DNA of 64,000 nucleotides, from contig NZ_VNWP01000006.1 in NCBI RefSeq assembly GCF_014224355.1, positions 62,001 to 126,000 on the forward strand, written 5' to 3'. Both the position numbers and the translations under genes were made by a program. The stretch comes from Synechococcus sp. BSA11S (lineage in GTDB: Bacteria > Cyanobacteriota > Cyanobacteriia > PCC-6307 > Cyanobiaceae). Below the pieces are notes generated by a model, which made no database searches, was not told the DNA's origin, and saw only the letters and a list, made by a program, of their open reading frames with translations. This document shows positions 49,087 to 53,400 of this stretch, in pieces; within the stretch, counting starts at the first letter, position 1; the number at the start of each line of letters is the position of its first letter.

Positions 49087-49590
49087 TCACCAGTCGTCGC
49101 CGGCGGGCACCTCCCAGCCCTCGGCATCCGGGCTGGTGGAGGGCGTGGCCGCGGCGGGGGTGCCGGCAGGACCGTCGCCGCTGCCGGTGCGCAGGATCCG
49201 GAACGGCACTGAGAGGGTGGGCGGCGGATCCTGGGGCGCCCGCTCGGGGCCGGCGCTGTCCGTGGGCGGCTGGTGCCTCTGGCGCCTCGCCTCGGGCTCG
49301 GGCATCTCCTCCCAGGGTTCAGATTCGCGCCGATCGCGGGCTCCAAGGGGTTGCACCGATCGCCGCCGCAGGGGCTGATCACCCGATTGCTGCAGGGCCA
49401 GGGCCGTCAGACCGGCGCTGAGGGCTGCGCCACCGCTGGCCGCCAGGGCCATCCAGGCCCCGATCGGCAGGGCCGGCGATGTCCAGATCAGCAGCCGCAG
49501 GCGAGTGGGGGGGGTGGGGTTGAAGGCCGCCACCAGAAGCACGGCCAGCAGTGGGGCCAGCAGAGGCAGAAGCAGGAGGCGTTGCAGCAC
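49087..49590 (-). CDS. Two-helix membrane hypothetical protein with Pro-rich tail
   Basis: This 167-residue protein has two N-terminal membrane helices (LLLLPLLAPLLAVLLVAAF and PIGAWMALAASGGAALSAGL) and a long hydrophilic, Arg/Pro/Glu-rich C-terminal region. It ends in a short motif (EGWEVPAGDDW) that looks conserved and could be a docking site. It lies between ubiX and DUF2996 in the same direction. I cannot assign a function. Confidence 0.6.
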   Translation of the reverse strand: MLQRLLLLPLLAPLLAVLLVAAFNPTPPTRLRLLIWTSPALPIGAWMALAASGGAALSAGLTALALQQSGDQPLRRRSVQPLGARDRRESEPWEEMPEPEARRQRHQPPTDSAGPERAPQDPPPTLSVPFRILRTGSGDGPAGTPAAATPSTSPDAEGWEVPAGDDW

Positions 49591-49631: not shown

Positions 49632-50255
49632 TCAGAGGCTGGCCGCGGCGGCCACCGGACCATCCCAGCGCCGCAGGGCGCCGAGGTCGTAGCCCAGGCC
49701 ATCGAACACCCGGATCACCAGAAAGTCGACCATGTCCTCCAGGCTGGTGGGGTGGTGATACCAGGCGGGGATCGGTGGTGAGATGCGTGCCCCCGCCTCG
49801 GCCAGGGCCGTCAGGTTGCGCAGGTGCACCAGGTTCCAGGGCATCTCCCTGGGAGCAATCACCAGGGGCCGTCCCTCCTTGAGGTGTACATCAGCCACCC
49901 GCTCCACCAGGTCGAGAGCCACGCCGCTGGCGATGCGCCCCACTGTTCCCATGCTCGCCGGCAGGATCACCATGCCGCGGGTGCGGAAGCTGCCACTGGC
50001 GATCGCCGCCGCCTGGTCGTTCCATCGGTGGCAGCGCAACGAGCCGGTGCCTGTGCCCGTGCGCTCCCGCCAGAACCGGGTCTGGAGATCGGGTTCGGCC
50101 GGAATGCGCACCCCCTGCTCCGCCAGCCAGACCCCGAGGGCGCCGCGGCTGACGATCAGTTCGACCGTTTCACCGGCCTCCAGCAGCAGCTGAAGGGCGC
50201 GCTCGGCCAGGGGCATGGCGGAGGCACCCGACACCGCCAGAACCACCGGGTCCAT
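49632..50255 (-). CDS. ubiX: UbiX, flavin prenyltransferase
   Basis: UbiX makes the prenylated FMN cofactor used by UbiD decarboxylases, as in quinone biosynthesis. The 207-residue protein shows VLAVSGASAMPLAERALQLL, the loop GSFRTRGMVILPASMGTVGR (flavin contact), RPLVIAPREMPWNLVHLRNL, and a closing PPIPAWYHHPTSLEDMVDFL. A GTG immediately precedes the ATG. The start follows the upstream gene's TGA by three bases, so the pair is probably coupled. Confidence 0.94.
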   Translation of the reverse strand: MDPVVLAVSGASAMPLAERALQLLLEAGETVELIVSRGALGVWLAEQGVRIPAEPDLQTRFWRERTGTGTGSLRCHRWNDQAAAIASGSFRTRGMVILPASMGTVGRIASGVALDLVERVADVHLKEGRPLVIAPREMPWNLVHLRNLTALAEAGARISPPIPAWYHHPTSLEDMVDFLVIRVFDGLGYDLGALRRWDGPVAAAASL

Positions 50256-50258
50256 CAC

Positions 50259-52562
50259 TCAATCCCCCCGGTCTTCGGAGCCGGCATCCACTGTCGGGCT
50301 GCCCTTCTCGATTCCGTCCTCGACGCCCTCCTCCTCGCCTTCTGGCAGCAGCACGGCCAGATCGATCTGATGGCGCAGAGCGTCGACGTTCTGGATCTGA
50401 ACCTCCACCTGATCACCAAGCATGTAGGTACGGCGGTTCTTTCGGCCCACCAGACGGTTCTGGCGGGAGCGGTATTCGTACCAGTCGTCCTTCAGGGAAC
50501 TCACGTGCACCAGACCCTCCACCTGGGAGGGGGGGATCTCCACGAAGAAGCCGTAGCTCTGCACGCCGCTGATCACGCCGGTGAGGGTCTGGCCCACCAG
50601 GGGTTCCGCCGCCCGGGCCTGGGCCATGGCCACCAGGTCGGCCTCCACGTCGGCCGCAAAGCGTGCCCGGCCGTTGAGCCGCTGCACCATTGCATCGCTG
50701 CGGCCCTGCTGCAGCTCGGCGAGCTGGGTGGGGGTGAGCAGCGGCCAGTCGATCGTGCCGTGGCAGCTGGCGCTGGCCAGGTCGACCCTGGTCTTGTGGC
50801 GCACACTGGGACGGTCCTTGCCTTCGGTGAGCAGCAGCACCAGCACCTGCTGGTTCCAGAGATCGGCGTAGTGCAGGGAGGGCAGGCACCAGGGGGCGTA
50901 AGCGGCCGGCTCGCAGGCCAACTGATGGGCCTCCGCCGTGGCGCTCAGCTGGACGGGAGGAATGACGTCGCTGAGCTGACGTTGCAGCACCCTGCTGCGG
51001 TCGGTGGCCGCGAAGATGGCCACCAGGTCGTGGGCGGCCGGGGCATTGCCGTCGTCGCTCAGCTCCACAGGGATGTCGAGACCGAGGGCCGCCTTGGCCA
51101 CCTCATTGATCTCGGAGCCCTCCGCCGCAGGGTTGACGGCAAACAGGGCCGGCAGCCCGAGGGCCGCCAGGTGGGTACCGAGGGCACGGCCGGCGAGGAT
51201 CACCAGCTCGCGCAGCAGAGCGGTGGGTCGGTGGGCCGGCAGCTGCACCATCCAGCCATGGCGACGTTCCTCCGGGGCGGGGATGCAGAGGTCTCCCAGA
51301 GCCTCCAGGCTGGGGCGGGGGAGATCAAGCTCCAGGGATCCGGCCTCAAGCCGCCGCTGGCGCAGCAGCGCCGTGATCTCCACCAGCCGCTCCAGCTGGG
51401 GCAGCTGATCCTTGATCGGCTTCAGCGCCGCCGGGGTGGTGCGGGCCTTGGGCTTGCGGTCCGCCAGGGCCTGCAGGGCGGCGTCATCCACCACCGCGTC
51501 CACCTTGACGCTGGTGAGCGCAAAGCGGTAGTCGCTCAGCTCTCCCTGGTCGTTGCAACGCAGGCCCACCGAAACGGCGGCCTGCACCTCACCGGGCTTG
51601 AAGGCGGCGGCCTTGCCCAGGGCCGGGCTGAGCATGGGCAGCCAGCGGCGGCCGAGGCAGATGGATTCAGCCTGGTCCCGCAGCCAGAGATCGAGGCTGC
51701 CGCCGGGGGTGAGCCGCTCCGCCAGGGCAGGCACATGGACCCAGATCCTCAGGCCCTCCTCGCCTTCCTCCAGGGAGATGGCTGGCAGGATGGGGGCGTC
51801 CGCACCACTCCAGCTGTTGAGCACCAGGGTGGACAGGGCCGTCAGGTCGGTGCGGCCTTTCTCGCCGGGAGCCTTCAGGCTCGAGCGAGGGGCAGCCGGG
51901 CGCTGGCGCAGTCCGTGCTTGGTGAGCAGCAGATCGAGATCGGCTTCCTCACCGCCATTGATCGGCAGCCGCCGCTCGACGTGGCCCAGGGGTGGGAACT
52001 GCGCCACCGGATAGCGGTCGAGCAGCACCTCCACCACCGACTGCTTCTCGGGATCCAGGTAGCTGGCGTCAGAGCCAGGCAGCTCCACCGAAGTCAGCAG
52101 CCGGTCGTCGAGGGGGACGGCCAGGAGTCGGTCCTCCTGCTGTTCCACCTGGGCGAGCAGGTGAGTGGTGGCCCGCTCGAGGATGCACTGGACACCCCCT
52201 TCGGGAGAGCGGCGGCGCCCCCCTTCCCTGGTGATGCGCACCAGCACGCGGTCGCCGTTCCAGGCGTGGTTGAGCTGGTGATCCCGGATGTAGATGTCTT
52301 CACCACCGTCCTCGCGCAGGGCAAAGCAGAAGCCCTTGCTGGAGCAGCGCAGACGGGCTTCGATCAGGGTGTCGTCCTGACGCCGCTGGATGCCGTCCTC
52401 GGTTTCCACCAGCACCCCCAGCCGGCTCAGGCCCTCCAGGGCAATGCGCAACTGGGACTTGTCCGGCTTGAGGCTCAGGCCAAGCGCTTTCTCGAGCCTG
52501 GCCACCGGCAGGGCATCAGCGGCGGGGAGCTGGTCGAGCAGATGGGCGACCGTGAACTTCAT
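50259..52562 (-). CDS. zam: RNB-family protein (Zam/VacB-like) with altered catalytic motifs, plus S1 domain
   Basis: This 767-residue protein has an N-terminal winged-helix region (1-60), cold-shock-like OB segments (~65-200), an RNB-like domain (~240-580) and a C-terminal S1 domain (~658-740; TGVISGVQSYGFFVEIPPS, VEGLVHVSSL). The RNB catalytic D-L-D-D-A is replaced by PILPAIS (257-263), the HIADV motif reads HVPAL (276-280), and the S-P-I-R-R-Y segment reads PSLHYADL (561-568). It resembles the picocyanobacterial proteins named after zam (acetazolamide resistance). Hydrolytic activity looks unlikely. Start ATG 52562. Confidence 0.85.
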   Translation of the reverse strand: MKFTVAHLLDQLPAADALPVARLEKALGLSLKPDKSQLRIALEGLSRLGVLVETEDGIQRRQDDTLIEARLRCSSKGFCFALREDGGEDIYIRDHQLNHAWNGDRVLVRITREGGRRRSPEGGVQCILERATTHLLAQVEQQEDRLLAVPLDDRLLTSVELPGSDASYLDPEKQSVVEVLLDRYPVAQFPPLGHVERRLPINGGEEADLDLLLTKHGLRQRPAAPRSSLKAPGEKGRTDLTALSTLVLNSWSGADAPILPAISLEEGEEGLRIWVHVPALAERLTPGGSLDLWLRDQAESICLGRRWLPMLSPALGKAAAFKPGEVQAAVSVGLRCNDQGELSDYRFALTSVKVDAVVDDAALQALADRKPKARTTPAALKPIKDQLPQLERLVEITALLRQRRLEAGSLELDLPRPSLEALGDLCIPAPEERRHGWMVQLPAHRPTALLRELVILAGRALGTHLAALGLPALFAVNPAAEGSEINEVAKAALGLDIPVELSDDGNAPAAHDLVAIFAATDRSRVLQRQLSDVIPPVQLSATAEAHQLACEPAAYAPWCLPSLHYADLWNQQVLVLLLTEGKDRPSVRHKTRVDLASASCHGTIDWPLLTPTQLAELQQGRSDAMVQRLNGRARFAADVEADLVAMAQARAAEPLVGQTLTGVISGVQSYGFFVEIPPSQVEGLVHVSSLKDDWYEYRSRQNRLVGRKNRRTYMLGDQVEVQIQNVDALRHQIDLAVLLPEGEEEGVEDGIEKGSPTVDAGSEDRGD

Positions 52563-52659: not shown

Positions 52660-52944
52660 TTACGGAGCGTCGGTTCCGGAGCGCAGGATCAGCCGCAGAC
52701 CGATCACCAGGAAGCCCAGCGAGGCCGCCAGCTGCAGAGCATCAGGGGGGATCAGGCTGGAGAGCGAGCCCCCCGCCAGGGCTCCCAGCAGGCTGGCGAG
52801 CACCAGGGCCCCCGCGCTGCCCAGGAACACCGCCAGGGTGTTGCTGGAGGTGCCGCTGATCGTCACGATCGTGAGCTGGGTCTTGTCGCCCAGTTCGGCC
52901 ACGAACACCGTCAGGAAGGTGGAGGCCAGGAGGGGCAGCTGCAT
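52660..52944 (-). CDS. GDT1/UPF0016 half-size membrane transporter, copy A
   Basis: This 94-residue protein has three membrane helices and the family motif VFVAELGDKTQL at residues ~13-24. GDT1/TMEM165 proteins transport Mn2+ or Ca2+. In cyanobacteria a member (Mnx) moves manganese for photosystem II. A half-size protein must pair with another. The second half-size gene lies 18 bases upstream on the same strand, so the two probably form a heterodimer. Confidence 0.9.
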   Translation of the reverse strand: MQLPLLASTFLTVFVAELGDKTQLTIVTISGTSSNTLAVFLGSAGALVLASLLGALAGGSLSSLIPPDALQLAASLGFLVIGLRLILRSGTDAP

Positions 52945-52962: not shown

Positions 52963-53400
52963 TCAGGGATTGGGCAAGGTCAGGACAGGCTGGAGCAGGC
53001 CCAGGCTGGCCTGACCCCCCAGCCAGAGGCCGAGGGACACCATCAGCACCCCAGAAATCCGCTCCAGGCGCTGGGCGGGCATCACCGCGGCCAACCAGCG
53101 GCCAAGCAACACCCCCACCAGGCTGGAGCAGATCAGGGCCAGGGCGGCTCCGGCGAATACCAGGCCGGGCCGCCCGGATTCGGCCGAGAGCAGCAGAGCC
53201 GCCAGCTGGGTCTTGTCGCCCAGTTCGGCCAGGAAGACCGTGGTGAAGGTGGTGAGGGCCACCGCCATGAAATCCATCGGTTCCGTGGTCACCGTTGCTT
53301 CGCCATCGGTTTCGAAGCCGCTCGCTTCACCGGCGGGTTCTGAGTCTGGCTCCGGCACCACGGGCTCCGGACTGGCGCTGGGGTCGACGCTGTCGCTCAT
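52963..53400 (-). CDS. GDT1/UPF0016 half-size membrane transporter, copy B
   Basis: From ATG 53400 this is a 145-residue protein. A 40-residue acidic, disordered N-terminus (DPSASPEPVVPEPDSEPAGE) precedes three helices with the motif VFLAELGDKTQLAALLL. The acidic tail is an addition not seen in copy A. The ATG overlaps the stop of the YkgJ gene by four bases (ATGA). Mn2+ or Ca2+ transport is inferred from the family. Confidence 0.9.
   Translation of the reverse strand: MSDSVDPSASPEPVVPEPDSEPAGEASGFETDGEATVTTEPMDFMAVALTTFTTVFLAELGDKTQLAALLLSAESGRPGLVFAGAALALICSSLVGVLLGRWLAAVMPAQRLERISGVLMVSLGLWLGGQASLGLLQPVLTLPNP

Follow-up and report, generated by a model that had tools for sequence, protein, structure and literature searches.

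A degenerate nuclease site and a conserved cysteine pair in Zam, an RNase R-like protein of cyanobacteria

We find that the zam gene in the window (the whole 64,000-nucleotide stretch of Synechococcus sp. BSA11S DNA analysed here) encodes a protein in which, judged by alignment, every metal ligand and the catalytic Arg have been lost, the OB domains are constrained and a Cys pair is present; its fold is predicted to be intact. We consider it likely that Zam descends from an RNase R-like exonuclease, has lost the ability to coordinate the catalytic metal and is maintained because of its OB-fold domains, serving as a redox-gated adaptor of RNA decay. That Zam is a dead nuclease is already known: Thomas et al., 2022 (PMC9145284) described it as its own RNB-family clade across cyanobacteria with a degenerate active site, termed it a non-functional nuclease and suggested redox-controlled activation of RNase E. 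What we add is a graded and probably repeated erosion of the cutting site while the redox Cys pair is kept. The main point is thus published and in that sense ordinary, and the moderate interest of the case comes from this erosion and from a testable conflict in the literature, set out below.

The published work gives the physiological frame. In PCC 7002, Zam depends on two invariant redox-active cysteines of its first cold-shock domain (CSD1), C73 and C79; it affects phycocyanin synthesis and the photosystem ratio, Cys-to-Ser mutants phenocopy the deletion, and the purified protein shifts with redox state (PMC9145284). The reversible disulphide and the deletion phenotype (pigment, acetazolamide resistance) are known only for PCC 7002 and PCC 6803, and the acetazolamide resistance is viewed as an indirect effect (PMC9145284), which leaves the link to carbonic-anhydrase physiology drawn in the preliminary description weak. 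A search for later literature on Zam as a pseudonuclease returned none, a weak result given its narrow whole-word matching.

The zam gene and its former active site

The gene lies on the minus strand as an intact frame of 767 amino acids with zero internal stops; its start Met at 52562 aligns with Met1 of the orthologues, and a longer mechanical ORF reaching 52619 is an upstream extension of it. Pfam recovers OB_RNB (8.5e-20), CSD2, RNB (PF00773, 3.4e-44, 151.9 bits) and S1 (6e-12) in the order of RNase II/R. The preliminary description was therefore right about coordinates, strand, start, frame, domain order and the presence of S1, and all of its quoted strings were located (PILPAIS at residues 257-263, HVPAL at 276-280 and PSLHYADL at 561-568). 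The redox Cys pair C73/C79 had escaped it. The features are:

50259 to 52562, minus strand: zam, 767 amino acids, RNase R-type domain order with a degenerate RNB site
52365 to 52562, minus strand: N-terminal helical/winged-helix region, residues 1-66, from the secondary structure of the model
52170 to 52364, minus strand: CSD1 (OB fold), residues 67-131, the most constrained domain
52326 to 52346, minus strand: CSSKGFC, residues 73-79, redox Cys pair C73/C79 in the L12 loop (redox role from PMC9145284)
51867 to 52169, minus strand: CSD2, residues 132-232
50823 to 51866, minus strand: RNB domain, residues 233-580, with low conservation among Zam
51783 to 51818, minus strand: former metal site, residues 249-260, NSWSGADAPILP, placed by alignment to E. 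coli RNase II/R
50862 to 50888, minus strand: former Arg motif, residues 559-567, with L563 in place of R500
50343 to 50606, minus strand: S1 domain, residues 653-740, with a near-invariant DDWYEYR

As reference columns we took D201/D207/D209/D210 of E. coli RNase II, equivalent to D272/D278/D280/D281 of RNase R; the metal columns of the two enzymes coincide in the alignment with Zam and the canonical cyanobacterial Rnb. In RNase II numbering, the window Zam has N249 for D201, P257 for D207, L259 for D209 and P260 for D210, so that none of the four acidic metal ligands is kept (0/4). R500 is replaced by L563, Y253 by Cys and Y313 by Asp, and E542 is still Glu; against the NCBIfam RNase R equivalog the protein scores 194.4 bits, below the cut-off of 597.85. 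The motifs PILPA and PSLHY/PALHY recur in 7 further full-length copies from the same genus, and an xPLP signature is present in nearly all of the window's family, f1 (one sequence reads PLL), which also lacks R500. Because the replacements are fixed in the genus and xPLP is found in nearly all of f1, sequencing error is rejected as the cause of the motif loss, and the three degenerate motif groups of the preliminary description hold up in alignment with RNase II/R and with other picocyanobacterial Zam.

A model predicted from 89 aligned Zam (mean pLDDT 92.4, pTM 0.89) has as its best PDB match RNase R 5xgu (TM 0.84 by target length, 0.70 by query length), followed by RNase R 8cdu and then by Rrp44, Dis3L2, RNase II and the pseudonuclease Ssd1 of yeast (7am1, TM 0.58). 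These RNase R-like matches argue that the predicted fold is that of RNase R and has been kept.

Selection acts very unevenly along the gene. Among eight sequences of the genus (Nei-Gojobori), dN/dS is 0.12 for the whole of zam, 0.002 for CSD1, 0.021 for S1, 0.047 for residues 1-66 and 0.185 for RNB, and it reaches 0.49 around the former metal site (residues 244-266) vs. 0.074 in the corresponding catalytic loop of same-genus Rnb (five sequences, small numbers). Mean pairwise identity, with one Zam per genus, is 77% in CSD1, 73% in S1 and 40% in RNB, whereas Rnb shows the opposite order (38%, 37% and 56%, respectively); between genera within f1, identity is 36% in RNB vs. 73% in CSD1. These dN/dS values exclude a pseudogene. 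Together, the alignment, the structure model, the selection pattern and the literature back the conserved pseudo-nuclease proposed in the preliminary description, a reading that had already been published.

Site states and the cysteine pair across Zam proteins

We surveyed 160 Zam (41 family codes) and 26 cyanobacterial Rnb. All four acids are present in 26/26 Rnb and in 0/160 Zam; three acids (Asp or Glu) are kept in 11 Zam, two in 58, one in 51 and none in 40. D209 and D210 are kept together in 31/160 Zam from 11 families, nearly always with R500 (30), Y/F253 (31) and E542 (30), and nine Zam (f5, f8 and f23) keep D201, D209, D210, the aromatics, Arg500 and Glu542, having lost D207 alone (to Ala or Val). 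Such three-Asp and D209/D210 Zam refine the published view that a canonical site is missing from every Zam, which in the strict sense of four acids still holds, and these graded states are natural variants with which nuclease and non-nuclease functions could be told apart. All 80 named Nostocales Zam (L199-L278) carry Glu at D209 and Asn at D210 and keep Y253, R500 and E542, a uniformity that suggests a constrained non-canonical site and not free drift.

In the tree, Zam is separated from E. coli RNase II/R as well as from cyanobacterial Rnb (split 95 SH-aLRT, with long branches), and the window protein falls on the Zam side. We mapped the residues on a mixture-model tree of 56 Zam from which the catalytic columns had been left out. 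A minimum of four changes is required there for D209+D210 and of six for D201, against four and ten, respectively, on a larger quick tree; deep Zam branches are long, the position of the root inside Zam is uncertain, and these counts carry no direction. Constraining the D209+D210 keepers to one clade is rejected (p-AU 0.002), and since they do not form one clade, loss of the site was probably repeated; regain of the residues seems unlikely, and we therefore read the changes as losses. Local cases give the same picture: KHDN sits beside KSDD (100/99 support), TTED inside a DADD/VxDD clade and, within f23, HVDD beside DADD and RVDD beside DVDD. We conclude, from sequence comparison, that the cutting site of Zam probably deteriorated on several independent occasions and not equally far each time, picocyanobacteria being one of the groups in which the erosion has gone furthest.

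No catalytic residue comes close to the Cys pair in constancy, and this supports a non-nuclease function as the conserved one. Both cysteines are found in 153/160 Zam, including all members of 39/41 families; the CSD1 loop K/RLRCSSKGFCF is found in 142/160, and the window Zam carries C73 and C79 at the same positions as PCC 7002. The exceptions are f18 (6/6; in the readable sequences RLRFSRGSFW or similar takes the place of RLRCSSKGFCF) and f38 (its second Cys is replaced), and the six f18 Zam mean that a redox switch would not be universal. Two f44 genomes, which we take to be Gloeobacter violaceus and G. kilaueensis, have dead sites together with the Cys pair, and if this naming holds, the pair would be ancient.

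Almost every genome of the genus has a full-length copy, and only a few of the examined Cyanobacteriia genomes are without the gene. The f18 Zam (L174 of G214, L090, L169-L171 and L167) are without part of RNB as well as the Cys pair, and the frame of L174 is broken into two pieces; G214 is presumably Gloeomargarita lithophora, of a lineage close to plastids, and plastids are, to our knowledge, without Zam. Two Cyanobacteriia genomes, G261 (99% complete; possibly Anthocerotibacter) and G233 (94%), have Rnb and gave no Zam match. One genome of the window's genus (G263) has zam split into two frames (L133 and L134), possibly by assembly error, given its 6% contamination.

Gene order around zam and the identity of Alr1240

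The neighbours of zam in the window are:

49087 to 49590, minus strand: small ORF, hydrophobic at its start, lying between ubiX and DUF2996; Pfam gave no match
49632 to 50258, minus strand: ubiX (flavin prenyltransferase), abutting the zam stop; TIGR00421 at 156.8 bits, above the cut-off
52660 to 52944 and about 52963 to 53349, minus strand: two genes, each about half the usual size, with a GDT1 (divalent cation antiporter) domain, a short distance upstream of zam

The preliminary description had zam heading a minus-strand run with ubiX and DUF2996. The placing of ubiX at the zam stop stands, but the small minus-strand ORF between ubiX and DUF2996 was overlooked, and because same-strand GDT1-domain genes lie directly upstream, as a GDT1 gene does in 21/22 family loci, zam is not clearly the head of the run. 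A counterpart of the small ORF lies downstream of zam in 16 family loci, and in Nostocales a membrane-type gene is found there.

In 89 loci from 24/41 families zam is followed on the same strand by ubiX; three-Asp and Glu-Asn types are among them, and the shared order supports the orthology of these Zam. Nostocales carry zam, ubiX and a small membrane-type gene in that order on a single strand; rnb there has rpmG-rpsR before it and an opposite-strand ORF after it (one locus). The Anabaena PCC 7120 transcription unit alr1240-alr1241-alr1242 (PMC10287535) fits the former and not rnb, so Alr1240 is very probably Zam, in agreement with Thomas et al.; PCC 7120 is absent from the 80 Nostocales loci, and this identity is argued from gene order. 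According to a review (PMC10989914), Alr1240 is able to break down unstructured RNA, and it binds RNase E 1:1 in the catalytic part and stimulates its cleavage. If Alr1240 is Glu-Asn like its 80/80 relatives, as we presume, its reported activity is in conflict with what is seen in RNase II, which D209N alone inactivates (PMC3293843): either Glu-Asn supports a weak activity, or a host RNase co-purified. This exposes a conflict in the literature: what has been described for Anabaena as an active RNase II that also activates RNase E is very probably a Zam in which the key Asp is replaced.

Function of Zam and comparison with known systems

We reasoned that the RNB domain may be retained as a scaffold positioning CSD1/CSD2 and S1, and that Zam may bind RNA, RNase E or both and act in RNA decay as a redox-gated adaptor, the putative switch being a C73-C79 disulphide in the RNA-facing CSD1 loop. 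A second function would already have been present in an ancestral Zam still close to an active nuclease, and the nuclease residues may have been lost repeatedly because Rnb covers the exonuclease work. The RNase E part draws on one Anabaena protein reported as an active RNase II, which fits poorly with a dead enzyme, and we found no reports of an RNase E interaction for picocyanobacteria.

More tentatively, and with slightly less than even confidence, we propose Zam as the bacterial equivalent of fungal Ssd1/Dis3L2. Its ancestor would have had two functions under redox control, as a nuclease and as a binder of RNA/RNase E; the Cys switch would have been acquired early and kept, and the site lost several times. 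Keepers of D201/D209/D210 (with the aromatics, Arg and Glu) may then still cut RNA, and Nostocales and picocyanobacterial Zam could not. If true, such an ancestor would qualify the published view that no Zam has a recognisable active site.

Zam might instead act by binding RNase E independently of RNA and not as an RNA binder, which we think unlikely. The 1:1 binding and enhanced cleavage reported for Alr1240 (PMC10989914) fit this, as do the loss of the RNB-channel RNA contacts R500 and Y253 in the window Zam and the behaviour of purified PCC 7002 Zam, which was inactive as a nuclease and bound none of the tested RNAs, with aggregation as a caveat (PMC9145284). However, the aromatic and basic RNA contacts of the RNase II CSD1 loop are kept in the K/RLRCSSKGFCF loop (PMC9145284). 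The RNA-binding part of the preliminary description is plausible, set against an aggregation-prone PCC 7002 protein that bound no RNA.

A Zam that is still a nuclease, through a metal site rebuilt by other acids or through weak activity of the altered site, appears highly improbable to us. The degradation of RNA by Alr1240, reported although 80/80 Nostocales Zam are Glu-Asn, and the three of four Asp kept in some other Zam speak for it; against it, the window Zam has no acid at any of the four positions, a single D209N inactivates RNase II, and the former catalytic loop evolves fast. Judged by sequence position, no new conserved cluster is present: the family-conserved RNB acids are scattered (239, 265, 282, 299, 391, 413, 424, 481 and others). 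Finally, that zam is decaying towards loss is hardly credible, for although RNB evolves faster than the remainder and f18 Zam are truncated or frame-broken, the full-length gene in nearly all genomes of the genus, its near-ubiquity in the examined Cyanobacteriia and the selection on CSD1 and S1 refute this for the window's lineage.

As a redox-gated adaptor, Zam would tie photosynthetic redox state to RNA turnover in nearly all oxygenic cyanobacteria. Its closest known counterparts, Zam of PCC 7002 and PCC 6803 (sll1910; PMC9145284), resemble the window Zam in domain order, in the degeneration of the site, in the numbering of C73/C79, in having CSD1 and S1 as their best conserved domains and in the presence of a canonical companion Rnb. 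The window Zam goes further than many others, which keep one to three acids and RNA-channel residues. E. coli and Bacillus RNase R (5xgu, 8cdu) have the same fold and domain order, but the four metal Asp and the Arg are all absent from the window Zam. Cyanobacterial Rnb differs from Zam in its intact active site, its rpmG-rpsR-rnb instead of zam-ubiX order and its opposite conservation pattern; the genome's own copy (G000:C12:102347-103216, sll1290 type) keeps D-E-DD plus Y, Y and R.

Yeast Ssd1 and fungal Dis3L2 resemble Zam in their RNase II-family fold, lost metal ligands and conserved cold-shock domains, the active-site signature having been lost independently at least four times there, starting from a nuclease-like ancestor (PMC8097288). 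Unlike Zam, Ssd1 has an independent eukaryotic (Dis3L2) origin and a different cellular role, and its structural match to the model is only TM 0.58. We know of no redox Cys pair in Ssd1 or fungal Dis3L2. With its fold predicted to be kept, its metal site lost and purifying selection elsewhere, the window Zam fits an RNase II-fold pseudonuclease.
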